From positions 62,001 to 126,000 of the forward strand of contig CALCCE010000096.1 in assembly GCA_937899835.1 (NCBI GenBank): DNA of 64,000 bases, given 5' to 3'. This document shows positions 11,845-64,000 of this stretch, one piece after another. The notes below the pieces were generated by a model. The model was not told where the DNA came from and did not search any database. It saw nothing but the letters and a program-made list of their open reading frames with translations. The first letter of the stretch is position 1, and each line of letters starts with the position of its first letter. This DNA is from an uncultured Flavobacteriales bacterium (GTDB lineage: Bacteria > Bacteroidota > Bacteroidia > Flavobacteriales_G > Salibacteraceae). The position numbers and the translations under genes were made by a program.

Positions 11845-12225
11845 GTGTTGACGTTGGACGGTAAAAATGGGTATTTCTCTTCTGATCGTTCGGGTGGTTT
11901 CGGAGCTACGGACCTCTACCGGGTGCGGTTGCCCGAAAACCAGATTGATGTTACCGTAGTGAAAGGAATAGTGAAAGATGCGGCTACCAATGCACCGGTA
12001 ACAGCTTACATTTCGGTGGAGTATCAGGACGATGATTACATGCTGCAAGGCACTTATGCTTCCAACAGTAACAACGGTAAGTTTCTGCTAGTCTTAGACC
12101 CGGGAGCCGGTTATCGGGTGCTCATTGAAGCGGACGGATACCAATCGCAGGAGCTGGAATTGTTTTACCCGAAAAACGGGTTTCAAGAGGTGATTCGAGA
12201 CTTTAAATTGACGAAGAACCCGTGA
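11845..12225 (+). pseudogene. C-terminal remainder of the PD40 protein (same frame, after the TAA)
   Basis: In frame with the preceding gene and beginning three bases after its stop, this piece carries the last PD40 repeat ('DGKNGYFSSDRSGGFGATDLYRV') and a carboxypeptidase-regulatory-like beta-sandwich ('GKFLLVLDPGAGYRVLIEADGYQSQ'). It ends at residue 126 without the OmpA peptidoglycan-binding domain that usually follows in this family. There is no signal peptide, so on its own it could not be exported. It could be expressed only by readthrough or from the GTG at 11845. The stop overlaps a GTG at 12222 (GTGA). Confidence 0.7.
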
Positions 12226-12233
12226 TCAAAGCA

Positions 12234-13238
12234 ATGAGGTGGTTAATTGTTGGATGTTGCTGCTTGTTGGCCTTCCATCTCTCGGGGCAAGATCCGCAGT
12301 TCTCTCAGTTTTATGCTGCTCCGCTCTACCTCAATCCTGCTTTTGTTGGCAATACCACCGAAGGCAGGATGGTGCTCAATTACCGAAACCAATGGCCGGC
12401 TATTCCAGGCACATTTGTTTCCTATGCGGCTTCTTACGACTACAATCTCGATGACTTAAACAGTGGTTTGGGCCTTGGCATTCAGCACGACCAGGCGGGC
12501 ACGGCTGGTTTGCGCTATACCAATGCCGCTGCCATGTATGCCTATCGCCTGCGCATCAACCGCAAGCAAGCCATGCGATTTGGCATGAACCTGGGCTATA
12601 CCATTCGCGACCTCAATTTTTCAGAATTGCTTTTTGGTGATCAATTGATTAGTGGGGCGCCTACCACTTCTTCTACCGCTGCTTCCAACTATCGCGGCCA
12701 AGTAGTGACCTATGCTGATATTGGAGCGGGGGTGCTGTATTACACCCGTAGAGCGTGGTTTGGTTTTGCCGGGCATCACCTCAACCAACCCAACCAAAGT
12801 TTGCTATCCGGCGAAAGCCGCTTGCCGTTGAAATATTCGCTGCATGCCGGGTGGAATTTTACCCTCAAAAAGGACCGTCGTAGAAACCCGATTTCTTCCC
12901 TCATCGTTTCGGGCAACTACAAAGCGCAGTTGCGCTGGGATCAGTTGGACATTGGGGCTTATTTCAACTATGGCCTATTCGTTACCGGATTGTGGTACCG
13001 AGGCATTCCTGTAAAACGACTGGAACCGGAAATTCAAAACAACGATGCGATTGTTGTCTTGGCCGGTTTCAAGTGGAATGATTTCCGTTTCGGATACAGC
13101 TACGATCTGACCATTTCCCGATTGGTGACCAACTCGGGTGGAGCGCATGAAATTTCCTTGATTTATGAGCATGCCTCCCCATCCAAAAAACGGAAAAAAG
13201 CGAGAAGCCGCTTTTTGGTGCCCTGTGCCAAGTTCTAA
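12234..13238 (+). CDS. PorP/SprF family T9SS outer-membrane protein
   Basis: A PorP/SprF-type outer-membrane beta-barrel. After a short signal peptide comes the hallmark 'GQDPQFSQFYAAPLYLNPAFVG', and the rest alternates as membrane strands with 'FGYSYDLTISRLV' near the C-terminus. Members of this family assist export and surface attachment of type B T9SS cargo. Here the likely client is the PKD protein two genes upstream or the Ig-like protein on the other strand. ATG 12234 gives a 19-residue signal peptide; GTG 12222, overlapping the previous stop, is the alternative. Its stop overlaps the stop of the convergent gene by 4 nt. Confidence 0.9.
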   Translation: MRWLIVGCCCLLAFHLSGQDPQFSQFYAAPLYLNPAFVGNTTEGRMVLNYRNQWPAIPGTFVSYAASYDYNLDDLNSGLGLGIQHDQAGTAGLRYTNAAAMYAYRLRINRKQAMRFGMNLGYTIRDLNFSELLFGDQLISGAPTTSSTAASNYRGQVVTYADIGAGVLYYTRRAWFGFAGHHLNQPNQSLLSGESRLPLKYSLHAGWNFTLKKDRRRNPISSLIVSGNYKAQLRWDQLDIGAYFNYGLFVTGLWYRGIPVKRLEPEIQNNDAIVVLAGFKWNDFRFGYSYDLTISRLVTNSGGAHEISLIYEHASPSKKRKKARSRFLVPCAKF

Positions 13239-16200
13239 CGCAACAGGGTAAAGCTCCCGGTAAATTCGTTACCGTTGACTTCGATAATGTAGAAGTAAAC
13301 CCCTGGCGGGGTTTCCTTTCCGGCAAAGGTGCGTCCGTTCCAGCTGGGATCAGCTCCATCGGTTTCGAATAGCAACTGCCCCCACCGGTTGAAAATCTTG
13401 AATTTGGTACAACTCGATAGACCGAGTTTGAGGTCTACCTCCCACCAGTCGTTCAGGCCGTCTCCATTGGGAGAAAATACATTGGGTACCTCAAAGTCGA
13501 AATAATCGTCAAACGTCAGTAAATTCTCGCTGGCACTGGTATCTGCGGTGCAGCCGTCAACCGTGGTTACCGATAGAGTGGTTTGCAATAGGGAGGCAAA
13601 AGGGAAAAATATGTCTTGCGGGTCCATCTCGGTACTGGTAGTACCATTACTGAACGTCCATAGATAGCTATCCGCATTTTGACTTTCGTCCGTGAAATCC
13701 ACCAACACGCCGTCACAAGAAGGATCGGGAACATAACGGAATTGCGCCACTGGCGAAGGGAAAAGCTGCAAATTAACGGTGGCGGTCTCCACACATCCGT
13801 TAGCCGCAGTTACCGTAACCGTGTAAAGTGTAGGTCCATTCGGAAAGGCCAATGGTGTTGCTATAGTGCTGTCGTTCAAACTGGCTCCCGGAGACCAGGA
13901 GTAGGTGTACGGGGCCGCTCCAAAACTGGGATTGACCACTAAGGCCACACTGTCACCACTGCATAGACCAGTATCGTTTTGAGAACTCAATTCGAACACT
14001 GCAGCGAATACCGAATCGGAACTGGAACATTGATTGGTATCGGTTACAATGACTGAAAATACCGAATTGACACTTACGGTGGCCGTTGGATTGGCAATGG
14101 TTGAGTTGCTTACCTGACTTGCGGGTGTCCAGGAATAAGTAGCTCCCGAAGGACCGGTGGGCGAACCCCCCAAGGTAGCCGGCAAGTTATTACAGGCAAA
14201 TACCGTATCACCAGCATCTGCCACTGGCAAGGCATTTACTACCAATTGAATCGTATCGTTGTTTTCGCAGCCGTTAGTGTCGATTCCTACCACCAGGTAA
14301 GAGGTATTGGTCGACGGACTTGCCATAGGATTGGCAATGCTGACCGACGAAAGCCCTTGTGCAGGCGACCATGTAAAATTGCTGGCCCCGGTGGCTTGGA
14401 GTTGAAGTGTATCGCCTTCGCAAAAGGAAGTATCGGTACCCGCATCGACTGTCGGTAGTGGATTAACCGCTAATTCAACCGTATCTGAGCCGAAGCAGGA
14501 ATTGCTGGGCGCAAAGAACTCAATGTCATCTATTCCAAAATCGTTTCCGATCGGATCGGTATTGAGGGTGCGAATGCACAGTTGGGCATTGGTGGCCGTT
14601 CCCGAATTCCAGGTGCAAGAGAGCAATACCCACTGATCGGGCAATTCGGGCAACACCAAAGAGGCACAAATCGAGCTGCCATTGATCAGCAATTGAACTT
14701 CGGGATCGGCCGAATTGAGTGTTGGGTCTACCACGTTGTTAACCCAGGTAGAGAACACATAATCCGTGTTGGGGGTTACCGCTACGTTTTGGCACCAGGC
14801 CTGATCGGCCGTGTTGGTAGAACCGTCAACCACCATAAATTGCCCGCTTCCAGTAGTGTGGTCCACTCCTGAAAAAGTAGGCTCAATCAAATTGGCATCG
14901 GTTGTTACTGCATAATCCGACGACTGCACTTGATTGCCGGCAACGTAGAGGTTGTAATTGGTGGTGAATCCGGTATTCCCTTGTTCGAAATCACCATTGA
15001 CCACCAAATTGATTGGTGTACCACCCGAAACGATATAAGTAGTGGTAGTGCTGGGAGCGGCAATAGGATTGGCAATTGTATCAAAGTTGAGGCCAGCCGC
15101 CGGAGTCCATTGGTAAACCGTACCGCCAACCGCCTGAAACGGATAACTGTCACCGGCACAAATCGCGGTGTCAGGGCCGGCCGAGATGGTGGGTAAACTT
15201 TGGATAATTAGTTCCACCGAATCCTGGTTGGCGCACAGACCACTTCCCGGGCCGCCGGTAAGTTGAAAGCCGGTTACTACATAAGTAGTGGTTTGATTGG
15301 GCGCAGCTAAAGGATTGGTTAAGGTGGAATCGTTGAGCGATGTTCCGGGCGACCAAATGTAACTCACCCCACCACTGGCGGAAAGCTGAGCCGTATCTCC
15401 CAAACAAATCGTTTGGTTCAATCCGGCATCAATCACCGGTAAGGGTAAACTGCTCAAGGTAACCGAATCGACGGCACTGCAACCGTTGGTATCGGTAATG
15501 GCTACCACATATACATTCGTATCTATAGGAAAGGCAAAAGGATTGCTCACCGTGTCATTGCTCAGGGTGGTATCTGCATTCCAGGCGTAAGTGATGCCGC
15601 CACTGGCCTGCAGTTGCACTGTGTCGCCCAGGCAAATGGTCGTGTCGTTTCCGGCGTCTGCATTGGGCAGGGCGTTAACCGTTACCGAAATGGTATCAAC
15701 ACCCGTACAGGTATCACTGGAAGTAAACACGATGTAATCGGTTGGAGCGCTTGGGAAAACCAACGGATTGCCCACCGTATTGTTGACCATGGTGGCAACT
15801 GGTTGCCAATTGAAGGTAGCCCCCGGAGGAGCAGTAGGGTTGCCCCCAATGCTCAAAGTATCACCGCTGCAAAGTGCCGTATCTGGCCCTGCATTGGTAG
15901 GTACGATCGGGTTCACGAAAATGGTTAGCGTATCCACATTGGGGCAGCCGTTCACCGGATCGCCAGCCAGTAGGTACACCACGGTATCAATGGGACCTGC
16001 GGATGGGTTGGCAATGGTATCGTTGCTGAGGCCCGTGTTGGGCGACCAGTTGTAAGTGGTGCTTCCAGTGGCGTTGATTTGAGCCGTATCCCCCGGACAA
16101 AGCCAAAGGTCGATCCCTGCATTCACTGTTGGATAATTGACTACAACGGTGACCGAATCCTCGTCAGTGCAACCAAAACCGTTGGTAACTGTGAGTTGAA

Positions 16201-18607
16201 GCACTTGAGTTGAATCCGGAAAAACTTGTGGGTTGGCAATGGTACTGTCGGACAAAAAGGTGCCCGGCGACCATGCATAAGTTCCGCCCCCCGAGGCTAA
16301 AATTTGAGCGGTATCTCCCGGGCAAAGGTTGATGTTGGGCCCGGCATTAGCATTAGGGGAAGGATTGACAACGATCGACACGGTATCCCTGCCCGGGCAG
16401 CCATTGCTGTCGGTTACTTGAAGGATGTAGTTGGCAGAGTTGCCCGGCGAAGCCTCTGGGTTGGATACAGTATCCGAATTCAATCCAGTGGCAGCTGACC
16501 ACAAAAAGCTAGCGCCTAAGGGGCCGGTTGGATTGCCTCCCAAGGTGACGGTTTCCCCGTTGCAAATGGTGGTATCCACTCCGGCATCTGCCAAAACAGA
16601 CGAAATAACCGAGACAGTGACCGAATCGCTAATCGTACACCCGTTGGTTTGACTGATGGTTACCACGTATGTGGTGGTAGTATCTGGAAAGGCTTGTACG
16701 GTAGATCCAGTGGTACTGCTCAGGGTAGCTGCCGGCGACCATTGGTAGCTCGATCCTCCGGTGGCTACCAACGTCAACGTATCACCATCACACGCCAAGG
16801 TATCCGGGGTAAGGGTAATCGAGTTGAGGCCCAACAGGGATACCGTAACTGAATCTTGAAGCGAACACCCCATGCCATCGCTTACGGTTACTACATAAGT
16901 AGTGGTAGTGCTTGGTGTGGCCAGTGGATTGAAAACATTCGGATTGTTGAGCGAGGAACTGGGGCTCCAACTTGCTTGATAGCCGGGAAAAGCAGTAGGT
17001 GAACCACCGAGTTGGACAGTATCTCCCGGACAAATGATTTGATCGGGGCCCGCATCGGCCAGGATGTTCTGAATAGTAATGTTAGCGCTCACAGGAGGCG
17101 AATTACATCCTAAACTACTGGTAGTGGTAACCGTTAAGGTTCCAGCAGTGCTGGTCCCCCAATTCACGGTGATCTGATTGGTGCCGTTGCCGGAAACGAT
17201 CGAACCGCCGGTGATGGTCCAGTTGTAGGTAGCTCCTCCAATGCTGTCGACGGAATACACTACGCCACTGTCTCCCGGACAAACCACTTGCAACCCATTG
17301 ATGACCGTTGGACCCGGAAATGGATTGACTACCACCTCGAAGGTAAAAGGACTCACCTTAGGCAAGCAGCCGTTGTCGCGTACTTCTACGTTGAAAAAGT
17401 AGGGCGCTACACGGCCTTGACCACAACCTGTGTTCCAACAGAACTGAGTAGACAAGAGGCTGTCGGCATTTTGAGGTGAGGGTAAAAAAGCCGGAGGGTT
17501 GGTAAGGGTGGCATCCAGTGGTTCCCCATTGGCCACGAGAAAAAGGCTATCCCCATTGGGGTCGAAAAAAGTCATTGGAATACAGAGCGTATCTCCTTCC
17601 TCCAAGGTAAAAGAAGTGACGCCACTGCCACCAGCAGTGGAAAGATTGGGCCGCGGATTCACCGGACAGTTCGATACAATGATCTGCATGTCTCTTCGCG
17701 TAATGCCTATGGGTGTGGTAAGGTTGGGTGGGCGAAACTCCCGAATTTCAATGGCGGTAACAAATGTGCCCAAAGTAGTGGGTCGATATTGAGTAAACCC
17801 GGAGTTCTGGTTGATGAACTGAAAACCGCCAGGACCAAAAATGGTATTGGCATTGAAGCCAGTGGCCCAATTGATGGTGGGAGGTGGCCACCCCAGGTTG
17901 ATCGGCAATGGTGGGCTTGGAGGAGGGTTCCCATTTTGTCCGTCTCCGCTATAACCCCAAAATGGATCAACGAAAGAGAAAACCAAAATATCACCATCCG
18001 GGTCCGTAGCGGTGTTCAACACCCCGGTAGTATCGTTGATACAAATTTCAGGTACCGGAACATCCGTAAATACAGGTGAGCTGTTCGCGAGGAGGGTAGG
18101 CCCAATAAAAGCTGTAAACGTTAGTCCTTGTTGTCCCGGCTGATTGAGGTTGATTGTTCCCGGGTTGCGGCAACACCTATCGTAAAACAGGTAATATCCC
18201 TGAAAGGTGAGCGGCAAATCGATGGTACCCAGATAAGTCGCCTCATAGATACAAGGTGGTACTCCTGGTTGGATACACCCTGCCGGTAAAGCAGGTACAA
18301 TGGCATTGGAGTCCAGCAATGGAATAATAAGCGAAGTGGTTTGGTTCAGGGTAGCAGGTGGGTTCAGGCCCGGACCTTCATAAAACCCAATTTCCAGTTG
18401 AGGCTCAGGAAAATTGACTCCCCAAAAGGGAGACGTACAATCCAAGTAGGTTTTGAAGGTGATTTCGTAAGTCGCTGCATTGGTAACACTATTGAAACCA
18501 AGGTACCGGTAGGTAATACTGCCTCCTACGAGGTGGGTTGCTTGCAGGTTGCCGACCAGAAGCACCCCCACAAATGCCCCAATTAGCCTAAGAATCCACT
18601 TCCCCAT
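13235..18607 (-). CDS. Large Ig-like-repeat surface protein with type B T9SS C-terminal domain
   Basis: A secreted 1,790-aa protein. The signal peptide ends near '...LQATHLVGGSITYRYLG', an N-terminal module common in gliding-associated proteins. About twelve repeats of roughly 75 aa follow, with the pattern 'DAG.DT.IC.GDT..L.A.G...Y.W.P...L....NP.A.P..TT.Y.V...D.NGC...D'. A jelly-roll-like module ('NLVVNGDFEQGNTGF ... GIDDIEFF') is inserted inside one of them. One PKD-like domain and the gliding-motility C-terminal domain ('NVFSPNGDGLNDWW ... FNRWGQLLFET ... FTLLR') close the protein. It lies 4 nt after the gene at 18612-22289 and is probably co-transcribed with it. Likely adhesin; ligand unknown. 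Confidence 0.9.
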   Translation of the reverse strand: MGKWILRLIGAFVGVLLVGNLQATHLVGGSITYRYLGFNSVTNAATYEITFKTYLDCTSPFWGVNFPEPQLEIGFYEGPGLNPPATLNQTTSLIIPLLDSNAIVPALPAGCIQPGVPPCIYEATYLGTIDLPLTFQGYYLFYDRCCRNPGTINLNQPGQQGLTFTAFIGPTLLANSSPVFTDVPVPEICINDTTGVLNTATDPDGDILVFSFVDPFWGYSGDGQNGNPPPSPPLPINLGWPPPTINWATGFNANTIFGPGGFQFINQNSGFTQYRPTTLGTFVTAIEIREFRPPNLTTPIGITRRDMQIIVSNCPVNPRPNLSTAGGSGVTSFTLEEGDTLCIPMTFFDPNGDSLFLVANGEPLDATLTNPPAFLPSPQNADSLLSTQFCWNTGCGQGRVAPYFFNVEVRDNGCLPKVSPFTFEVVVNPFPGPTVINGLQVVCPGDSGVVYSVDSIGGATYNWTITGGSIVSGNGTNQITVNWGTSTAGTLTVTTTSSLGCNSPPVSANITIQNILADAGPDQIICPGDTVQLGGSPTAFPGYQASWSPSSSLNNPNVFNPLATPSTTTTYVVTVSDGMGCSLQDSVTVSLLGLNSITLTPDTLACDGDTLTLVATGGSSYQWSPAATLSSTTGSTVQAFPDTTTTYVVTISQTNGCTISDSVTVSVISSVLADAGVDTTICNGETVTLGGNPTGPLGASFLWSAATGLNSDTVSNPEASPGNSANYILQVTDSNGCPGRDTVSIVVNPSPNANAGPNINLCPGDTAQILASGGGTYAWSPGTFLSDSTIANPQVFPDSTQVLQLTVTNGFGCTDEDSVTVVVNYPTVNAGIDLWLCPGDTAQINATGSTTYNWSPNTGLSNDTIANPSAGPIDTVVYLLAGDPVNGCPNVDTLTIFVNPIVPTNAGPDTALCSGDTLSIGGNPTAPPGATFNWQPVATMVNNTVGNPLVFPSAPTDYIVFTSSDTCTGVDTISVTVNALPNADAGNDTTICLGDTVQLQASGGITYAWNADTTLSNDTVSNPFAFPIDTNVYVVAITDTNGCSAVDSVTLSSLPLPVIDAGLNQTICLGDTAQLSASGGVSYIWSPGTSLNDSTLTNPLAAPNQTTTYVVTGFQLTGGPGSGLCANQDSVELIIQSLPTISAGPDTAICAGDSYPFQAVGGTVYQWTPAAGLNFDTIANPIAAPSTTTTYIVSGGTPINLVVNGDFEQGNTGFTTNYNLYVAGNQVQSSDYAVTTDANLIEPTFSGVDHTTGSGQFMVVDGSTNTADQAWCQNVAVTPNTDYVFSTWVNNVVDPTLNSADPEVQLLINGSSICASLVLPELPDQWVLLSCTWNSGTATNAQLCIRTLNTDPIGNDFGIDDIEFFAPSNSCFGSDTVELAVNPLPTVDAGTDTSFCEGDTLQLQATGASNFTWSPAQGLSSVSIANPMASPSTNTSYLVVGIDTNGCENNDTIQLVVNALPVADAGDTVFACNNLPATLGGSPTGPSGATYSWTPASQVSNSTIANPTATVSVNSVFSVIVTDTNQCSSSDSVFAAVFELSSQNDTGLCSGDSVALVVNPSFGAAPYTYSWSPGASLNDSTIATPLAFPNGPTLYTVTVTAANGCVETATVNLQLFPSPVAQFRYVPDPSCDGVLVDFTDESQNADSYLWTFSNGTTSTEMDPQDIFFPFASLLQTTLSVTTVDGCTADTSASENLLTFDDYFDFEVPNVFSPNGDGLNDWWEVDLKLGLSSCTKFKIFNRWGQLLFETDGADPSWNGRTFAGKETPPGVYFYIIEVNGNEFTGSFTLLR

Positions 18608-40601: not shown

Positions 40602-41077
40602 CCGGTTTCAAGAAGCAATACTCCGAATCAAGGTGTTGATACGATGCTCTTCATCCATTGAGCGCTGATCGACGGGAATTTCAAGTAAAAGTTTTAGTCG
40701 TTGAGCTTTCTCGGCCAACTCAAGAATTGCTTCAATCCGGTGATGCACTGTCGCGATTTTTTGGACTTCTGAAGCGGTAGTCAGATGATGAGTTGAATCG
40801 CCTGTAAAGAGGGTTGGATCGCGATGAAATTGGTCCGGGAGTGCTTTGTCTTTTTTCATGCCGCCCGAGCCCAAAAGAGAATGCCAGGAGCCAAGGTTTG
40901 CGCTGATTTTTTGAATAGAATCCGTCTTGATATCCAGATTATAGAGACCCATTACTGATCCAATTCAGTCTACCGCAAATCCAAAAATCAGTGCAACCGG
41001 TCCACTGCGCAGCAGTGGCTACCTTGGAGGATGGTCAATGTCTTTTGGAGCTTTGGCAGGAAAAGGGGAAAGAGCTT
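40602..41077. repeat. 476-bp tandem direct repeat, unit 1
   Basis: Unit 1 begins at CCGGTTTCAA (40602) and the same ten bases recur at 41078 and 41555, so two units of 476-477 bp stand head to tail. The units are identical over most of their length and differ by a few bases only at the edges. Each holds one 114-aa gene and, upstream of it, a perfect CCACTGC-GCA-GCAGTGG hairpin (41002-41018 in this unit). Confidence 0.9.
40608..40952 (-). CDS. Unknown 114-aa protein, copy 1 of a tandem duplicate
   Basis: A small soluble protein of unknown family. The N-terminal half is polar with 'GSGGMKKDKALPDQFHRD'; the C-terminal half looks helical ('HHRIEAILELAEKAQRLKLLLEIP'). No signal peptide, membrane helix or known motif was recognised. 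A perfect inverted repeat lies about 50 bp upstream of the ATG. It is identical to its neighbour except at the last residues (SIAS here against IIAF). Confidence 0.6.
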   Translation of the reverse strand: MGLYNLDIKTDSIQKISANLGSWHSLLGSGGMKKDKALPDQFHRDPTLFTGDSTHHLTTASEVQKIATVHHRIEAILELAEKAQRLKLLLEIPVDQRSMDEEHRINTLIRSIAS

Positions 41078-41554
41078 CCGGTTTCAAAAAGCAATAATCC
41101 GAATCAAGGTGTTGATACGATGCTCTTCATCCATTGAGCGCTGATCGACGGGAATTTCAAGTAAAAGTTTTAGTCGTTGAGCTTTCTCGGCCAACTCAAG
41201 AATTGCTTCAATCCGGTGATGCACTGTCGCGATTTTTTGGACTTCTGAAGCGGTAGTCAGATGATGAGTTGAATCGCCTGTAAAGAGGGTTGGATCGCGA
41301 TGAAATTGGTCCGGGAGTGCTTTGTCTTTTTTCATGCCGCCCGAGCCCAAAAGAGAATGCCAGGAGCCAAGGTTTGCGCTGATTTTTTGAATAGAATCCG
41401 TCTTGATATCCAGATTATAGAGACCCATTACTGATCCAATTCAGTCTACCGCAAATCCAAAAATCAGTGCAACCGGTCCACTGCGCAGCAGTGGCTACCT
41501 TGGAGGATGGTCAATGTCTTTTGGAGCTTTGGCAGGGAAAAAGGAAAAGTGCTT
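41078..41554. repeat. 476-bp tandem direct repeat, unit 2
   Basis: Second unit of the tandem duplication, bounded by CCGGTTTCAA at 41078 and 41555. Its hairpin is at 41478-41494. Near identity to unit 1 points to a recent event. Confidence 0.9.
41084..41428 (-). CDS. Unknown 114-aa protein, copy 2 of a tandem duplicate
   Basis: The second copy of the unknown small protein, with the same start, length and upstream hairpin. Because the duplication keeps the whole frame and the same bases before it, both copies should be expressed alike if the gene is real. Intact frames in both copies support coding, but the event may be too recent for this to be strong evidence. Confidence 0.6.
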   Translation of the reverse strand: MGLYNLDIKTDSIQKISANLGSWHSLLGSGGMKKDKALPDQFHRDPTLFTGDSTHHLTTASEVQKIATVHHRIEAILELAEKAQRLKLLLEIPVDQRSMDEEHRINTLIRIIAF

Positions 41555-43040: not shown

Positions 43041-43190
43041 GGTTGCGATTTTCACAATACTACTTAATCCAACACATCGATCAATAGGCCATAACCCGAG
43101 AAAACATGCTTTTTCCCGGGAAAACTTTGAATGCTCCAACCATTTGGAGATTCACCTGCATCTTTCAAACAGCAGAGGCATTCCTTCCGC

Positions 43191-43751
43191 ATGAAGTATT
43201 CTGACCAGAGTAGCGAGCAAGACCTTATTCTAGGGTGTCAAAAAGGGCATTCTCAGGCACAAAGGTTTTTGTACAAACGGTTCTACAGTAAAATGAAGAG
43301 CGTTTGTATGCGTTACGCCCGTGACCCTGATGAGGCAGAAGAAATGCTCAATTCTGGATTTTTAAAAGTTTTCAATGCCATCAACCGCTATGAGGCCAGA
43401 GGGTCTTTTGAGGGTTGGGTACGGAGAATTGTCTTGAATAGTGCGTTAGAACACATTCGAAGGCAAGTCAAATACCGGGAAACGCTCACCTTCGATACAT
43501 ATCACGAAGGTTCAGTTTCTTGTGATGCCGTCGAAACCTTGATGGTAGAAGACCTGTACAAAGTGATTCAGAAACTGCCTACCATGCAGCGAATGGTATT
43601 TTGTTTGAATTTGTTGGAAGGGTATACCCACAAAGAGATCGGAGAATTGCTAAGTATTCCGGCAGGTACCTCAAAATGGCACTTGTCAGAAGCGAAAAAA
43701 CAATTTTCTAAGCTTGCTAAAACCTACTATAGTAGATCGTATCAGAAATGA
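43191..43751 (+). CDS. ECF-type RNA polymerase sigma factor
   Basis: A 186-aa sigma-70 family factor. Region 2 is 'YARDPDEAEEMLNSGFLKVFNAINRYEARGSFEGWVRRI' and region 4 is 'LPTMQRMVFCLNLLEGYTHKEIGELLSIPAGTSKWHL'. It lacks regions 1 and 3, as ECF factors do. ATG 43191 is chosen over the longer frame from 43131 because the family starts close to the 'EQDLILGCQKG' block. Its TGA overlaps the ATG of the next gene (ATGA), the usual arrangement of an ECF factor and its anti-sigma factor. Confidence 0.92.
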   Translation: MKYSDQSSEQDLILGCQKGHSQAQRFLYKRFYSKMKSVCMRYARDPDEAEEMLNSGFLKVFNAINRYEARGSFEGWVRRIVLNSALEHIRRQVKYRETLTFDTYHEGSVSCDAVETLMVEDLYKVIQKLPTMQRMVFCLNLLEGYTHKEIGELLSIPAGTSKWHLSEAKKQFSKLAKTYYSRSYQK

Positions 43752-45622
43752 ACCAAAAGGATCAATACACCGAAAAGTTGCTCAAAGACCGCATTGAGCA
43801 GCACACTTTCGAATTTTCGGAAGACCGGTGGGACGCAATGGCTTCCATGCTCGAAAGCCAACCCCAACCTGTGGCTTCCCCGTGGAGCTGGTTTGGTTTC
43901 TCCCTCAACAGCATCATGGTTCTTATTGCCGGTGCCGGAACTTTTCTCCTGGGATTGGTCCTGGTTTCCCCTATCGATACTGTCAATGCCGAAAATGCTG
44001 CTGCGGTCGCAGCGTTGAAGCCATCCCTCTCAGACAACATAGAACAAACTCAATCAATATCACCGTATTCATCACCAATCGCTTCGTTTTTTACAACCGA
44101 AGGTACCGATCGAAGCGAAGGAAATGGCACCATTGCATCGGCTCATTTATTTCCAATTATAGAAAATAAAGCAAAAGATAACGCAGTTGCATCTGCCCAT
44201 GTTCCTCGCAACGAAAAGGTTGCTTCTGCTTCAAAGAGTAAGTTAGAACCACAGAATGCGTCCGTCCAAAAAAGCTCTATATATCCAACGGGGCAAGTTG
44301 CTGCATCGAGTGAAGTTGCTTCCTCATTGGCGCAGAAGGAAACGGCTACAGCTTCAGTATCAGAAAGCCAGCCGCTTGGTCTTGTAAATAGCGCTACTGG
44401 AAAAGCAACCGATAGTGAAATGAATCAGAATGCTTCCGTCACTCTTCAGGTGGAAGTGTCTCCTGGCCTTATGGCCGGAGATCAGGCTGAATATCAGGAA
44501 GAAGGCGAAGCTGCCATTGCGAAAAAGCGATTGCCTTCCAACCTTGGTTTGAATAAAAACAATTCCCGGGGTATTGCACTTCGCGACATCAACCGAGGAG
44601 GCCGTGGTCGTTTCCGCATGCACCATGTGAAGGGAGCCGCCCATATCCGTAGAACCAAAAAAGGATTGCGCTGGGGCAATGCTTCCCATCAATTCAACAA
44701 CAGTCAGCTCTTCAACATTTGGGACAACCCCGCCTATGTGGGCGTAGAAGAAGGACAAAACCTCATTATTCAAGCCAATCGCTCTTGGTTGGGCATGTAC
44801 CGGCCTAAAGGACGTGGGTTAGATTCTGATTTGAAAAACCGTTCTTTCTACCGTTCACCTACCAATTATCAAATTGGTTACTACGGTCACTTAGGCGGAA
44901 AACACCGTACTGCACTTGGAATATATGTAGAAGATGAAAACCAGCGTTTGCTGAGACAAACCAGAATAAACGCCTCCATATCACACAAATTTTCACTCAG
45001 CAAAAAGCAATACCTGAGCTTTGGACTCAATGTGGCTTACACCCAAAATCAGGTCTTCTTCAACGAGCTCTATTTTCCCGATCAGGTGGATCCTCGCCAA
45101 GGTGTGATTTACAACACTTTGGACCTTCCGGTTACCAAGTTTACCCGTTCGGTTGACTTTTCGTTGGGAATGTTCTATAGCTATCGGAAATTCTATGCCG
45201 GAGCAGCGATCAATCAATTTGTGCAACCTCGGATAACCTACTTCGAAGAGGCAGCGATTCCAGAGCGCGACCTTCAACGTGAGGTTCACATGGCCAGTGG
45301 CTTCGATGTAGACCTTTCCAAGAAATTTACCCTTAGCCCATCGGCAACGGTAGAGGTGAATGCTAAAGGTATCGAGTTGAACCCGGGTTCATTTGTAAAA
45401 TACAACAACCAATACATGTTTGGGCTTTCTTATAGAAACCTCAACGTAGTAACTGCCCATGCTGGTTGGCTCTTAGCCGATCACATGCGATTATTGGTCG
45501 CCGTAGGAACTCCTACCCAAGCAGACTTGCTTGACTATGGCCGTATCGCCTATATGGAGGCAGGTTTGCGCTATCAGTTTGGCAAGCGTACCCACAAAAC
45601 CTCAATTTTGGTGTATGATTAA
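43748..45622 (+). CDS. Putative anti-sigma factor fused to a PorP/SprF outer-membrane barrel
   Basis: A 624-aa protein with an unusual layout. Residues 1-50 are charged ('YTEKLLKDRIEQHTFEFSEDRWDAM') and have no signal peptide; one hydrophobic helix spans about 53-74; residues 75 to about 300 form an Ala/Ser/Glu-rich linker; about 305-624 is a PorP/SprF-like barrel ('QFNNSQLFNIWDNPAYVGVEEGQNLIIQANRSWLGMY ... GLSYRNLNVVTAHAGWLL'). Directly coupled to an ECF sigma gene, the N-terminus is probably a sigma-binding domain. The linker is long enough to cross the periplasm, so one chain may span both membranes, as reported for dual membrane-spanning anti-sigma factors of Bacteroides. The anti-sigma role is inference from position and topology. 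Confidence 0.8.
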   Translation: MNQKDQYTEKLLKDRIEQHTFEFSEDRWDAMASMLESQPQPVASPWSWFGFSLNSIMVLIAGAGTFLLGLVLVSPIDTVNAENAAAVAALKPSLSDNIEQTQSISPYSSPIASFFTTEGTDRSEGNGTIASAHLFPIIENKAKDNAVASAHVPRNEKVASASKSKLEPQNASVQKSSIYPTGQVAASSEVASSLAQKETATASVSESQPLGLVNSATGKATDSEMNQNASVTLQVEVSPGLMAGDQAEYQEEGEAAIAKKRLPSNLGLNKNNSRGIALRDINRGGRGRFRMHHVKGAAHIRRTKKGLRWGNASHQFNNSQLFNIWDNPAYVGVEEGQNLIIQANRSWLGMYRPKGRGLDSDLKNRSFYRSPTNYQIGYYGHLGGKHRTALGIYVEDENQRLLRQTRINASISHKFSLSKKQYLSFGLNVAYTQNQVFFNELYFPDQVDPRQGVIYNTLDLPVTKFTRSVDFSLGMFYSYRKFYAGAAINQFVQPRITYFEEAAIPERDLQREVHMASGFDVDLSKKFTLSPSATVEVNAKGIELNPGSFVKYNNQYMFGLSYRNLNVVTAHAGWLLADHMRLLVAVGTPTQADLLDYGRIAYMEAGLRYQFGKRTHKTSILVYD

Positions 45623-46220
45623 TTCCGCCTTGAGGTGGAGTGTTGCAGCACTGGTACTATTGACCGGCTGTACAACAGACGATGACAATCCGGAGTGCAC
45701 CCGTACGATTGAGTCCAGCATCACTGTTGTAGTGGAAAACGCCGGCTATGTATGTCTGTATGCTGATCAAACCGCCGAATTGCGAGTACTACCCCGACCC
45801 GAAGCCACTTACTTGTGGAGTTCGGGAGATTCAACCGCCTCCATAGAGGTAGATCAACCAGGCATTTATTCGGTCTCCGTCAGTGATACCAACGGAAGTG
45901 TAGATTCCTTTCTGATTCAGTTGTATGATTGTAACCCACCCGACCTGGTGGCTATTCCAAGTAGCTTCACGCCAAATGGTGATGGGATCAACGATATTTG
46001 GTTTCCTGTCATTGCAGAATCGTGTGGTATAAATGTGCAAGTAAGAGATCTGGATGGGAATCGCATGTTTGAAACCAGTGATTTCACTGAAGCCTGGAAT
46101 GGCGAAAACATATTCGAAAATTTGCCCGCCCCAATGGGTACCTACTTTTACACCGTCAACGTCACCTTTTTTAACGGAACTACTTCCGACTACACAGGTG
46201 AGGTGCTTTTGATCCGATAG
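45615..46220 (+). CDS. Small lipoprotein with type B T9SS C-terminal domain
   Basis: A 201-aa protein. The N-terminus has a lipobox ('LVLLTGCTTDDD', Cys 19), an Ig-like stretch follows ('LRVLPRPEATYLWSSGDSTASIEV'), and the last ~95 residues are the gliding-motility C-terminal domain ('IPSSFTPNGDGINDIWFP ... VRDLDGNRMFETSDF ... AWNGENI ... VLLIR'). It overlaps the PorP-fusion gene by 8 nt, so the two are coupled. Type B domains normally work with PorP/SprF proteins; here that partner is the putative anti-sigma factor. It may be the ligand of the sensor. Having both a lipobox and a T9SS domain is odd. Start by ATG 45615. Confidence 0.85.
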   Translation: MINSALRWSVAALVLLTGCTTDDDNPECTRTIESSITVVVENAGYVCLYADQTAELRVLPRPEATYLWSSGDSTASIEVDQPGIYSVSVSDTNGSVDSFLIQLYDCNPPDLVAIPSSFTPNGDGINDIWFPVIAESCGINVQVRDLDGNRMFETSDFTEAWNGENIFENLPAPMGTYFYTVNVTFFNGTTSDYTGEVLLIR

Positions 46221-46263
46221 CTTTCAGGGGTTCGGAGCGAAAGAAATAACTACTTTTAGTCCG

Positions 46264-46740
46264 ATGCACTCCCGAACGCGCATTCTTCTTTTCCTGCTTC
46301 TTTTGGGATATACCCCAGGTTTTTACTGCCACGCTCAAGAAGCAACAACAGAAAAACCCAACCCAACCAGCATGGAGCCGATTTTAGAAAAATCGGCCAA
46401 CCTGTTGCTTTCCATCGAAGAACAAGGCTACGAAGTGGTGCACCTTGAAGTGGACATCCTCAAAACCGTTAGGTACACCTACCGCTCCTTATATCCCGAT
46501 TACGAATACGGTCTGCTAATTTTTGGCGATTACCGACTGAAATCAGTTCAGCTCAAGGTGTACCAAAATTTAGATGGTGCCTGGGCGCCAATCACTGGCC
46601 TAAAGACAGAACAACAGAACGGAAATACCTTAGTAACCTTCAAACCGCAAGCGTATGGCAAGTATCGGTTTGAGTGGATCGGTGAAGCATTTGTAGCCGA
46701 ACAAACCGCTGGTCATGCTGGTCTGCTAATTTTCCATTAA
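46264..46740 (+). CDS. Small secreted protein of unknown function
   Basis: A 158-aa protein with a signal peptide (about residues 1-24, 'LLFLLLLGYTPGFYCHAQ'). The mature part is beta-rich and ends 'TAGHAGLLIFH'. I do not recognise a family. It lies 43 nt after the type B lipoprotein gene and is probably the last gene of the sigma-factor operon, which would place it under the same control. Its stop overlaps the stop of the convergent aminopeptidase by 4 nt. Confidence 0.7.
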   Translation: MHSRTRILLFLLLLGYTPGFYCHAQEATTEKPNPTSMEPILEKSANLLLSIEEQGYEVVHLEVDILKTVRYTYRSLYPDYEYGLLIFGDYRLKSVQLKVYQNLDGAWAPITGLKTEQQNGNTLVTFKPQAYGKYRFEWIGEAFVAEQTAGHAGLLIFH

Positions 46741-59725: not shown

Positions 59726-60718
59726 TCAGAAGGTAATTTTATTGGCCTTATTCAGCATGATCCCCAGTACCACCTCGTGGCTTCCAGAACTGTATTGCTG
59801 CAGCTGAGAAGTGGTGAAATCATAAGCATAACCGAACTTGAGCATGTCGCTAATAGTCATTCCTACCATTCCTACAATAGCATCGTTCTGACGATAAGAA
59901 ACGGCTCCCCAGATTCTTTGGCGGTAGTCGAACTTTGCAGAAATATCGAATGAAACAGGTAATGGGTCCAAATAACGCACCAGGAAATTAGGGGTAAAAG
60001 TAATCTCGGGAGTAAGGTATAATTTGTAACCAGCGGTTAGAAAATGATGCATCTTCCGCTCATTTCCTGTTACCGCATCCCCAAGGGTCACTTCATTTTG
60101 AAGTAACTGCGCAGTAGAGTATCCGATATACAACTCATTGTTGTAAAACCATGTGCCAAAGTTTAAGTCCACTACAGTCGAGGTATTCGTATTACCCTGA
60201 AAAGCAGCATAGATCGGATCTTCGAGTACCTCAGGGCTGACCTTAGACCGATCGAAGAGTATCTGTGTGGCACCAACTGATGTCCCCACCGACCAGGTAA
60301 AGGTTCTGGAGATAGGGAGGTGGATAGCATATCCAGCGTTGCCAATCGTTTGCCGGAATGCACCAGCTTCATCTGAAGCAATAAAGCCTCCAATCGCATG
60401 GCGCAGCTTGCGCTTCGGATCATAGCGGTTATAACGATTTGGTTTACTGATCCTCAGAGAAGCAGGCTTGTAGGAGGGTTTCTTAAACTTAGTTAGCGAA
60501 GTGTTAGCACTTGCGTAGTAAGTCTGAGGAGAACCCTCAATACCCGTCCACTGCTTTCGATAGCTGAGGGTGATATCAAGGTAAGGCTCGATACCGGCAG
60601 CAGCGGGATTAAGCACAAACGGATTTTGCTGATACTGGCTATGCTGACCCAGCTGCTGGGCAGCAAGACCATTTGAAATCAGTAAGGCAATGGCCCAAAG
60701 GAAAATTTGTTTTTTCAT
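59726..60718 (-). CDS. PorP/SprF family T9SS outer-membrane protein
   Basis: A 330-aa PorP/SprF protein with a signal peptide ending at '...NGLAAQQ' and the family block 'GQHSQYQQNPFVLNPAAAG', then 'ITLSYRKQWTGIEGSPQTYY' and the C-terminal 'FGYAYDFTTSQLQQYSSGSHEVVLGI'. It is expected to help export and anchor the HYR-repeat protein encoded 8 nt upstream. This trio (cargo, PorP, OmpA) is the standard type B cassette of Bacteroidota. Confidence 0.93.
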   Translation of the reverse strand: MKKQIFLWAIALLISNGLAAQQLGQHSQYQQNPFVLNPAAAGIEPYLDITLSYRKQWTGIEGSPQTYYASANTSLTKFKKPSYKPASLRISKPNRYNRYDPKRKLRHAIGGFIASDEAGAFRQTIGNAGYAIHLPISRTFTWSVGTSVGATQILFDRSKVSPEVLEDPIYAAFQGNTNTSTVVDLNFGTWFYNNELYIGYSTAQLLQNEVTLGDAVTGNERKMHHFLTAGYKLYLTPEITFTPNFLVRYLDPLPVSFDISAKFDYRQRIWGAVSYRQNDAIVGMVGMTISDMLKFGYAYDFTTSQLQQYSSGSHEVVLGIMLNKANKITF

Positions 60719-60726
60719 GGCCTTAA

Positions 60727-63700
60727 TTATTTAAGAAGCGTGATAGAACCAGTAAAGGTTCGGTTCTCAGGATCGTTCAATTCAATGATGTAGAAATAAG
60801 GACCGAATGGCAGATCTTTTCCAGCATTAGTTCCGTCCCATGGGTCGTCATATCCAACAGATTCGTAGACAACTCCTTGCCATTTATCAAGGATAACCAC
60901 CTTAGCATTTGGATAGTTACTGATTCCCAAAATCTTGAATTCATCATTGATTTGATCGTTGTTCGGAGTGACCAGCGTGTAAATTGTAATGCTGTCCGTT
61001 ACGTTCACCGTCATAGAGTCGGTTACCGGGCACAGACCATCCAAGGTTACCGTCAAGGTGTAAACCGTTGTCTCCGGAGGAGATGCATCCGGATTCTCAC
61101 TGGCTGGGAAGTTGAGGAAGGTGGTCGGTGTCCACAGATACTCAATGTTACCCGCAGTAGCAGAAACGTTAGGTTGTAGGGTAGCTACCTCTTCTCCCTT
61201 AGTGATTGTAAAGTCAGGACCAGCGTCAACTAGTGGTAGGTCATAAACGGTGACCGATACTATGGCCGACGAGTCAGGACATGGTGTAAGACCAGGAACC
61301 GTATATACATAATCTCCGGCCAAATCAGACCCAGGAGTGAATACACCCGAGTGAGGTTGTCCATCTGGATCAGTCCAAGAACCTCCGGCATCAGGTGTGC
61401 CATTCAGGATGTCAATGAGGTCAAATCCAGCATCATTCACACAAACTGTAATGGCACCATCTTCCCCTGGGTTGGGTCGAGCGTTGACCGTTACTGTAAA
61501 GCTGCAAGTATCAGAGTTACCTGCGGAGTCGGTAACCACGTAGGTCTCAGTAGTTACTCCAATTGGGAAGGTAGAACCTGAACCCAATCCTGCAATCTGG
61601 TTGGTGGTTAAACCGCCAGAACAGTTGTCGGTTCCTACCGGAGGAGTATAGAAGACTACCTCATCACATGAAACAATGTCAGCAGGACAAACAATTGTTG
61701 GAGCCTCATTATCCAGAATCGTGATGGTGAAGGAACAAGTATCCGAGTTTCCGGCAGTATCAATTGCGATGTAAGAAACCGTGGTAACTCCAACTGGGAA
61801 GATCGCACCTGAAGTGTGAGAAACAATCAAGGTATCGATGCCACAGTTGTCTGTCGCTTGAGGAATTGTCCAGGAAACGAGTGCACCGCAAATTCCGGCA
61901 TCGTTGTTAATGGTAATGTCAGCAGGGCATCCGGTGATGCTTGGCGCTTCGTTGTCGGTCACAGTGACGGTGAAGCTACAAGTGTCCGAATTACCAGCCG
62001 AGTCACTTGCCACAAATTGATTGATGGTAACCCCAACTGGGTAGGTAGACCCTGATGGGAATCCTGCAATTTGAGTAACAATCGCACCAGGACAATTATC
62101 TGTCACTACCGGTGCGGTGAAAGTAACGACAGCACCACATTGGTTCAGGTCATTGCCCACTACAACATCAGCAGGGCATACAATCACCGGAGCTTCTGAA
62201 TCTACTACTGTAACTGTAAAGCTGCAGGTATCAGTATTACCTGATGCATCTGTTACCTCATAGGTCTCAACCGTAACTCCAATTGGGAACAATGATCCAC
62301 TACCCAACCCGGAGATCAATGCAGTGGTACTACCAGGGCAGTTATCTGCTCCAACAGGAGCCGTGTAGGTAACAGTCGCACCACAGGCACCTGGATCGTT
62401 GCTAACCGAAATATTGGCAGGGCAAGCAATCGTTGGCAACTCCGTATCCACCACCTCTACAGTGAAGGAACAGGTATCAGTATTTCCAGAGACATCAGTT
62501 GCCACGAAGGTATTCGTGGTAATACCAACTGGGAATGCAGAACCACTTGGCAATCCAGCAAGTTGTGTAAGTGTTGCACCTGGACAGTTGTCGCTAATAC
62601 TTGGTGCAGTAAAGCTTACTACAGCAGAACATAGACCTGCATCATTGTTTGTGCTAACGTTTGCAGGACAAGTGATGACCGGTGCCTCGGTATCTGTTAC
62701 TACAACATCAAATGAACATACAGAAACATTACCTGCGGTGTCAGTAGCTGTATAAGTGACAGTGGTCGTACCAGCCGAGAAAGTACTTCCAGGAGTATGT
62801 GAACTCACAAACGAAGCAATTCCGCAGTTGTCCGTTGCCGTTGGAGCAGTCCATGTGGCAACGGCGGTACACAACCCTGGATCGTTGTTAAGGGAAATGT
62901 TTGCCGGACAGTTAGCAACAATCGGAGCAGTTGTATCCGAAATCGTAACTGTAAAGCTACAAGTGTCTGCATTGCCCAAACTATCGGTAGCTACGAAAGT
63001 GTTGGTTGTTACCCCAACAGGGTAAGAGGAACCACTTGGCAGTCCACCAATTTGCGAAATCGTAGTGTTCGAGCAATTGTCTGTTGCAGTAGGCAGTGCG
63101 AAGGAAATCACCGCTCCACAAGCACCAGAGTCGTTTGCTTGCGTGATGTTGGCAGGACAGGTAATGACCGGAGCTTCCACATCGTTGATGGTAACATCGA
63201 AACTACAAGTATCCGAGTTGCCCGCTGAATCAGTCACCACAAAGGTGTTCGTGGTGGTTCCAACTGGGAACGTAGCCCCACTGGCTAATCCACCAATCTG
63301 TGAAAGAATAGGACCTGAACAGTTGTCATTTGTGATAACCGTGTAAGTAACTACCGCTGAACACTGACCTGCATCGTTATTCTGTGTGATATTAGCAGGA
63401 CAAGAGATGGTTGGAGCCTCTGCATCGTTTACAGTAACATCAAAGCTACAGGTATCCGCATTGCCATTAGAGTCAGTGGCCACATAAGTATTAGTGGTTG
63501 TTCCAACCGGGAACACTGCTCCACTTGCCAATCCAGCAATCTGAGTTACTACAACCCCTGGGCAGTTGTCTATAGCTGTTGGTGCAGCATATGAAACTAC
63601 TGCTGAACAAAGACCAGCATCATTAATAGTGACCACACTTGGTGGGCAAGTGATAGCTGGTGCACTTGTGTCGGTAACCGTTACTGTAAAGCTACAGGTG

Positions 63701-64000
63701 TCTGCGTTTCCAGCAGAATCAGTGGCAACGAAAGTATTTGTTGTCACACCAACTGGGAAGACTGCTCCACTTGCCAATCCTGCAATCTGCGTGATAGAGG
63801 TGTTGATACAGTTATCAGTGGCCGTAGGTAAGGTATATGTTACAACTGCACTACATTGACCTGCATCATTTCCTTGAGAAATATTCGCAGGACATGCAAT
63901 TACCGGTGCAGTAGTATCCGCAACAGTTACCGTGAAGGTACAAGTGTCAGTGTTTCCAGCGAGGTCGGTAGCAACGAAGGTGTTCGTTGTTATACCTACA
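60727..64000 (-). CDS. Giant HYR-repeat surface protein with type B T9SS domain (5' end outside the window)
   Basis: The frame is open to the window edge, so at least 1,090 C-terminal residues are seen and the true start is missing. At least ten HYR domains of about 82 aa stand in tandem ('CPANI...NDAG.C.A.V.Y..P...DNC......QI.GL.SG..FPVG.TTN.FVATDSAGN.DTCSFTVTV'), then two degenerate beta domains and the gliding-motility C-terminal domain ('LVTPNNDQINDEFKILG ... VVILDKWQGVVYES ... DPWDGTNAG ... ITLLK'). Likely an adhesin or filament built of near-identical domains. It heads the PorP/OmpA cassette. Confidence 0.9.
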   Translation of the reverse strand, partial: VGITTNTFVATDLAGNTDTCTFTVTVADTTAPVIACPANISQGNDAGQCSAVVTYTLPTATDNCINTSITQIAGLASGAVFPVGVTTNTFVATDSAGNADTCSFTVTVTDTSAPAITCPPSVVTINDAGLCSAVVSYAAPTAIDNCPGVVVTQIAGLASGAVFPVGTTTNTYVATDSNGNADTCSFDVTVNDAEAPTISCPANITQNNDAGQCSAVVTYTVITNDNCSGPILSQIGGLASGATFPVGTTTNTFVVTDSAGNSDTCSFDVTINDVEAPVITCPANITQANDSGACGAVISFALPTATDNCSNTTISQIGGLPSGSSYPVGVTTNTFVATDSLGNADTCSFTVTISDTTAPIVANCPANISLNNDPGLCTAVATWTAPTATDNCGIASFVSSHTPGSTFSAGTTTVTYTATDTAGNVSVCSFDVVVTDTEAPVITCPANVSTNNDAGLCSAVVSFTAPSISDNCPGATLTQLAGLPSGSAFPVGITTNTFVATDVSGNTDTCSFTVEVVDTELPTIACPANISVSNDPGACGATVTYTAPVGADNCPGSTTALISGLGSGSLFPIGVTVETYEVTDASGNTDTCSFTVTVVDSEAPVIVCPADVVVGNDLNQCGAVVTFTAPVVTDNCPGAIVTQIAGFPSGSTYPVGVTINQFVASDSAGNSDTCSFTVTVTDNEAPSITGCPADITINNDAGICGALVSWTIPQATDNCGIDTLIVSHTSGAIFPVGVTTVSYIAIDTAGNSDTCSFTITILDNEAPTIVCPADIVSCDEVVFYTPPVGTDNCSGGLTTNQIAGLGSGSTFPIGVTTETYVVTDSAGNSDTCSFTVTVNARPNPGEDGAITVCVNDAGFDLIDILNGTPDAGGSWTDPDGQPHSGVFTPGSDLAGDYVYTVPGLTPCPDSSAIVSVTVYDLPLVDAGPDFTITKGEEVATLQPNVSATAGNIEYLWTPTTFLNFPASENPDASPPETTVYTLTVTLDGLCPVTDSMTVNVTDSITIYTLVTPNNDQINDEFKILGISNYPNAKVVILDKWQGVVYESVGYDDPWDGTNAGKDLPFGPYFYIIELNDPENRTFTGSITLLK
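61480..64000 (-). repeat. Tandem array of HYR domains
   Basis: About ten units of roughly 240-250 bp with high similarity at the DNA level, for example the 'AAAGCTACAGGTGTC'-type block recurring near 63684, 63436 and 62949. The units carry a regular pair of Cys residues (one in 'DNC', one in 'DTCSF') besides 'CP' and 'GLC'. The array runs out of the window. Confidence 0.85.

Follow-up and report, generated by a model that had tools for sequence, protein, structure and literature searches.

In a 6.9-Mb draft genome of an uncultured Flavobacteriales bacterium, we analysed a stretch of 64,000 nucleotides (nt), hereafter called the window (G000:C96:62001-126000), in which three overlapping genes encode a sigma factor, a protein that fuses an anti-sigma-like N-terminus to a PorP/SprF barrel, and a lipoprotein with a type B sorting domain of the type IX secretion system (T9SS). 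The first gene (43191..43751, + strand) encodes an extracytoplasmic function (ECF) sigma factor of 186 amino acids (aa) with sigma-70 regions 2 and 4 (PF04542, 6e-15; PF08281, 6e-11; TIGR02937). Its end shares 4 nt, within the sequence ATGA, with the start of the gene for the 624-aa fusion (43748..45622, +), which we recognised from family scans, an N-terminal hidden Markov model (HMM) and its predicted fold. The gene of the 201-aa lipoprotein (45615..46220, +) starts 8 nt inside the 3′ end of the fusion gene. An earlier note on this DNA had described such a trio with its ATGA and 8-nt overlaps, in agreement with the coordinates and family scans; of the segment that it had delimited, 43191-46740, the part up to 46220 is the three-gene unit, while the remainder holds a further open reading frame (ORF) of 158 aa (46264-46740). 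Because this ORF has no family match and no counterpart behind the unit in the loci of relatives, we left it out of the system.

The C-terminal half of the fusion (residues 311-624; 44678..45619, +) is a PorP/SprF barrel by several lines of evidence. Residues 314-590 match PF11751 (PorP_SprF) with 9e-33 and 114.4 bits (cut-off 22.3), the barrel reaches 1.3e-36 and 126.5 bits against TIGR03519 (cut-off 90.6), and the AlphaFold model has exactly 14 strands in residues 311-624. A fold search of the PDB with the barrel returned FadL-family barrels together with a barrel chain of the T9SS translocon, 8gl6_F (Z 23.3, root-mean-square deviation 2.8 over 251 residues, which is lower than for the FadL matches); 6h3i_F was matched with a Z of 23.1. 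We take the translocon chain 8gl6_F to be PorV. The N-terminal signal peptide of free barrels is not present in the fusion, which has a cytoplasm-like start, an internal helix and a tether instead, so that it is not an ordinary PorP.

Residues 1-47 of the fusion are cytoplasm-like and are followed by a membrane helix segment (residues 48-76; 43889..43975, +), a hydropathy peak without charged residues that contains the only strong hydrophobic segment of the protein, around residues 55-76. Between helix and barrel lies a low-complexity, presumably periplasmic tether (residues 77-310; 43976..44677, +), which consists to 58% of A, S, T, N, Q, E and G and is predicted to be disordered, the local confidence of the AlphaFold model (pLDDT) being below 50 throughout residues 33-306. 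Hydropathy, composition and the AlphaFold model thus support the layout described in the earlier note, a short cytoplasm-like N-terminus, one membrane helix, a linker of ~230 residues and a barrel, and the family matches and predicted fold confirm its view of the barrel as PorP-like.

The same layout has been described for the Dma1/Das1 and Dma2/Das2 pairs of Bacteroides thetaiotaomicron, in which the Dma protein has an N-terminal sigma-binding segment, one membrane helix, a long disordered tether and a C-terminal beta-barrel, and its gene adjoins an ECF sigma gene (PMC13088901). We selected the ECF sigma genes closest to that of the window in its own genome and in the order and inspected the gene downstream of each; most of their products begin with a short N-terminus that bears a conserved Trp motif and continue with a membrane helix, a low-complexity tether and a C-terminus resembling a barrel. 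When four of these C-termini were checked against PF13568, two passed its cut-off, a third gave a weak match and the fourth gave none. An HMM made from 30 of these Dma-layout N-termini of relatives, without a single PorP- or type-B-headed protein, found a W-motif in residues 9-38 of the fusion (43772..43861, +) with E=8.4e-6 among 897 sequences, compared with 0.39 for the best background sequence outside the sigma-linked anti-sigma candidates. The fusion N-terminus therefore matches Dma-type anti-sigma N-termini at the sequence level, and the earlier claim of an anti-sigma-like segment stands as a resemblance. Its head, a PorP/FadL-type barrel, is unlike the outer-membrane protein (OMP) barrels of the OMP_b-brl_2 type at the related Dma-layout loci.

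The lipoprotein carries a lipobox with Cys19 and, in residues 113-200, a C-terminal T9SS type B domain (PF13585 CHU_C, 5e-12; TIGR04131 type B sorting domain, 9.5e-10 and 38.5 bits with a cut-off of 35), and TIGR04131 was matched by 12/12 lipoproteins of its alignment family A2. In a fold search, the lipoprotein model gave generic immunoglobulin-like matches only, with low TM-scores. Most lipoproteins of A2 have a basic/acidic run just after the lipobox cysteine, which in our view resembles the export signals of surface lipoproteins, and the lipoprotein may be exported by a separate surface-lipoprotein route rather than by the T9SS. Five further families (f6, f9, f11, f48 and f64) have the same kind of barrel with a signal-peptide-like start, no adjoining sigma gene and, again, the small lipoprotein behind it, which in f64 passes the edge of the locus before its C-terminus. 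In a barrel tree of 73 sequences, the fused and the free lipoprotein-paired barrels form one clade (100/99), separate from all other PorPs sampled, and judging from these sequences the barrel and the small type B lipoprotein are a module that is kept even without an attached anti-sigma segment. Two further, ordinary PorP genes are present in the window, each adjoining a large type B gene (12222-13238, +, with 13235-18607, -; and 59726-60718, -, with 60727-63999, -).

When the window fusion was searched against 395 genomes of the class, two full fusions were identified in another, distant Flavobacteriales family (f13), and within f13 matches were found in 8/10 genomes belonging to two genera. 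Every f13 locus inspected has the sigma gene, the fusion and the type B lipoprotein in this order, overlapping or a few bases apart; in one genome (G193) an assembly gap interrupts the fusion. The recurrence of the order in eight f13 genomes, in keeping with the reading of the earlier note, argues that the arrangement is more than chance, and the identity of 16-20% between the window and f13 fusions implies that the linkage is either ancient or has formed repeatedly. No further fusion was found in the 35 genomes of the window's own family, and a pattern scan of genome contigs with the window fusion alone revealed no relative. Long PorP frames in the same family were considered as fusions and rejected, as they are PorPs with C-terminal extensions behind large adhesins. 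The cytoplasmic part of the f13 fusions contains the W-motif in 4-5 tandem copies (L196-L203), an arrangement by which several sigma molecules could be bound per anti-sigma chain. Two W-motif copies are present in some OMP-headed proteins (L058, L060).

The other half of the barrel-type B pair occurs on the same module. In the window's own genome (G000:C304, L099) and in the relative G001, the gene behind a sigma gene encodes a protein that shares the N-terminal motif (E=9e-5 and 1e-7 with the Dma-type HMM) and continues with a helix, a linker, PKD domains and a type B sorting domain. With a profile built from both type-B-headed proteins, we retrieved full-length homologues of ~410-470 aa from many families of the class (loci L204-L223 and L224-L243, for example L226:962-5120). 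Among the 20 best loci, the sigma gene is directly ahead of the type-B-headed protein in all 20, at a spacing of -29 to +75 nt, and of the 18 that could be judged, 15 have a gene for large type B cargo in the next position. Both halves of the PorP:type B pair are hence found fused to the same anti-sigma module, and with these reciprocal fusions the docking state becomes the most economical signal.

Whether the PorP fusions have a single origin is answered differently by our two trees. The sigma tree, in which the window branch is long, rejects a single origin (p-AU 0.017) and places the f13 sigma factors with those of type-B-headed units (96/61) and the window sigma factor with those of OMP-headed units, whereas the barrel tree weakly joins the window and f13 fusion barrels (89/68). 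We therefore do not claim convergence.

A promoter-like element is associated with these units. GCAACC-N15-CGTC lies ahead of the f13 sigma gene, 21-22 nt before the ATG in the five g28 genomes, and the relaxed form CAACC-N14..17-CG[T/A] precedes the sigma gene at 6/8 PorP-headed, 22/25 type-B-headed and 20/27 OMP-headed loci, compared with ~1% of shuffles and 1/112 other genes. The element resembles what we take to be a self-controlled ECF promoter, and in the relatives the regulon of the sigma factor probably includes its own operon. In the window, inspection by eye suggested a weak, tentative ECF-type promoter, CAACC-N17-CATC (43137..43162, +; CAACC-N15/16-CGT in relatives). The strict pattern had 0 matches at eight further loci of the window's genome. 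A scan of five f13 genomes with GCAACC-N15-CGTC gave no more matches in total than the reversed control, and only the sigma upstream region (5/5) and the gene of a ~260-aa lipoprotein (4/5; L244, L247, L250 and L251), with the element 35-40 nt upstream of its start, stood out. This lipoprotein gene, one copy of which was scanned and had no Pfam match, is a candidate for membership of the regulon. Of the type B cargo genes located behind type-B-headed units, most have no such element themselves (present in 2/27).

In the FecA-FecR-FecI system, the signal of an outer-membrane barrel likewise reaches an ECF sigma factor via an anti-sigma protein; there, the barrel is TonB-dependent and separate from the anti-sigma protein, whereas both are one chain in the window fusion, and a Pfam scan of the unit detected no FecR, plug or TonB-receptor family. 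With Dma1 and Dma2, its nearest known counterparts, the fusion shares the layout and the adjacent ECF sigma gene (PMC13088901), but its head, a PorP/SprF barrel of 14 strands, is accompanied by a T9SS type B lipoprotein; a PorP head or a T9SS link is not described in the excerpts of PMC13088901, and the portion of the literature surveyed names no input signal for Dma anti-sigma factors. PorP-like proteins have been found experimentally to bind type B proteins, namely PorP to PG1035 (with PorE, in Porphyromonas gingivalis) and SprF to SprB, which are encoded together in Flavobacterium johnsoniae (PMC9143113); in these systems, too, a PorP-like barrel goes together with a protein that has a type B domain, but nothing cytoplasmic or linked to a sigma factor is attached to the barrel, and the type B partners are not small lipoproteins behind a sigma gene. 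In P. gingivalis, the surface protein PorA, which has a C-terminal sorting domain, influences the ECF sigma factor SigP of T9SS genes, but through the two-component relay PorXY and without an anti-sigma/barrel fusion (PMC7712824), and the link to SigP/PorXY drawn in the earlier note is an analogy only. The Dma layout itself is already known; what is new is its combination with a new class of head. In the portion of the literature covered, neither PorP barrels nor type B domains are linked to an anti-sigma factor. It is possible, though we place it a little short of even, that these proteins constitute an unreported class of trans-envelope anti-sigma factors joined to the type B branch of the T9SS, with either PorP-barrel heads that have a type B lipoprotein as built-in ligand or type B signal heads, through which the secretion machinery would thread a membrane-anchored anti-sigma factor to the surface or hold it docked.

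The explanation that we favour, with a confidence that is evenly balanced, is a trans-envelope sigma switch that would read type B docking on a PorP-type barrel. The N-terminal segment would keep the sigma factor at the inner membrane, the tether would span the periplasm and the barrel would be inserted in the outer membrane, so that the full chain would cross both membranes in one piece. The type B domain of the lipoprotein would dock onto the barrel from outside, and this docking would be altered by exported type B cargo that displaces the lipoprotein or by a ligand that the lipoprotein binds. A resulting change in the barrel or tether would make the anti-sigma segment free the sigma factor or be cut, and the freed sigma factor would transcribe its regulon. 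That the unit is a Dma-type switch is very probable; for type B docking as the sensed event we see the case as finely poised, and displacement by cargo as the trigger seems rather unlikely. The docking mechanism, which the earlier note had proposed, gains indirect support from the fusion of both halves of the PorP:type B pair to the same anti-sigma module.

Several results weigh against this switch. The W-motif is only 30 residues long, and the full-length AlphaFold model of the fusion, with a mean pLDDT of 48.6 and low confidence outside the barrel, was uninformative on the N-terminus, so that the N-terminal claim rests on sequence. The strict promoter pattern was not matched upstream of the window sigma gene, where there is the degenerate candidate only; no PorP gene lies in type-B-headed loci within the stretches examined; and OMP-headed relatives also have a third-gene lipoprotein that lacks a recognised type B domain, so that a lipoprotein in this position need not mean T9SS. 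In the window's own genome, such lipoproteins of ~210 aa are located behind two OMP-headed Dma units (L098:6066-6692, -; L105:2521-3159, +), so that a third-gene lipoprotein may be general to Dma operons. Dma2 is part of a three-gene operon (PMC13088901).

If the barrel were an outer-membrane anchor only, the unit would be an ordinary Dma-type sensor of the outer membrane or envelope state that is independent of type B docking. Most relatives carry unrelated OMP_b-brl_2 barrels on the same sigma/anti-sigma layout, some of them followed by a lipoprotein, and Dma1 and Dma2 affect vesiculation in Bacteroides (PMC13088901), both of which fit this view; however, the barrel falls in the only clade that is accompanied by a type B lipoprotein, and the other half of the pair has been fused independently to the same module, which leaves the anchor as a serious but doubtful alternative. 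In five further families the lipoprotein has a separate signal-peptide barrel as its partner, which would also agree with a fusion that is processed to an inner-membrane anti-sigma protein and a free PorP-like barrel for the lipoprotein, giving co-expression without a trans-envelope signal. We consider such processing improbable, as the fused form with its long tether has been kept in the window and eight f13 genomes at 16-20% identity and its layout equals that of the Dma proteins, which are described as spanning from the outer membrane to the cytosol (PMC13088901). Finally, the N-terminus might be no anti-sigma domain at all, in which case a PorP variant anchored in the membrane would simply have a sigma gene as its neighbour. 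The shortness of the motif and the purely predicted nature of its sigma contact speak for this, but the distance between the motif score and the best unlinked background, the gene overlaps, the same partner order across families and the tandem motif copies in f13 make it highly improbable.

Two other features were noticed outside the unit. In the window, near-identical tandem ORFs of 114 aa (40608-40952 and 41084-41428, -) differ at their last residues only and are, from their sequence, a recent duplication of ~480 bp. Elsewhere in the genome, an OMP-headed Dma unit (L100; G000:C138:98000-108500) is flanked on one side by a gene pair for a type B protein and a PorP, and on the other by a gene whose product has at least 1977 aa.

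These findings bear on how Bacteroidota adjust their output of surface adhesins to what the T9SS has actually put on the cell surface. A Dma-type protein headed by one half of a known docking pair provides a concrete candidate signal and two partners, and the type-B-headed, sigma-linked family, which stands ahead of cargo genes in many families and offers many more species for testing, may be the more important find. If the proposed class of anti-sigma factors exists, no relay protein would be needed to couple the export and attachment of cargo to the transcription of cargo operons, and cells with this unit may directly read the state of their own secretion surface.

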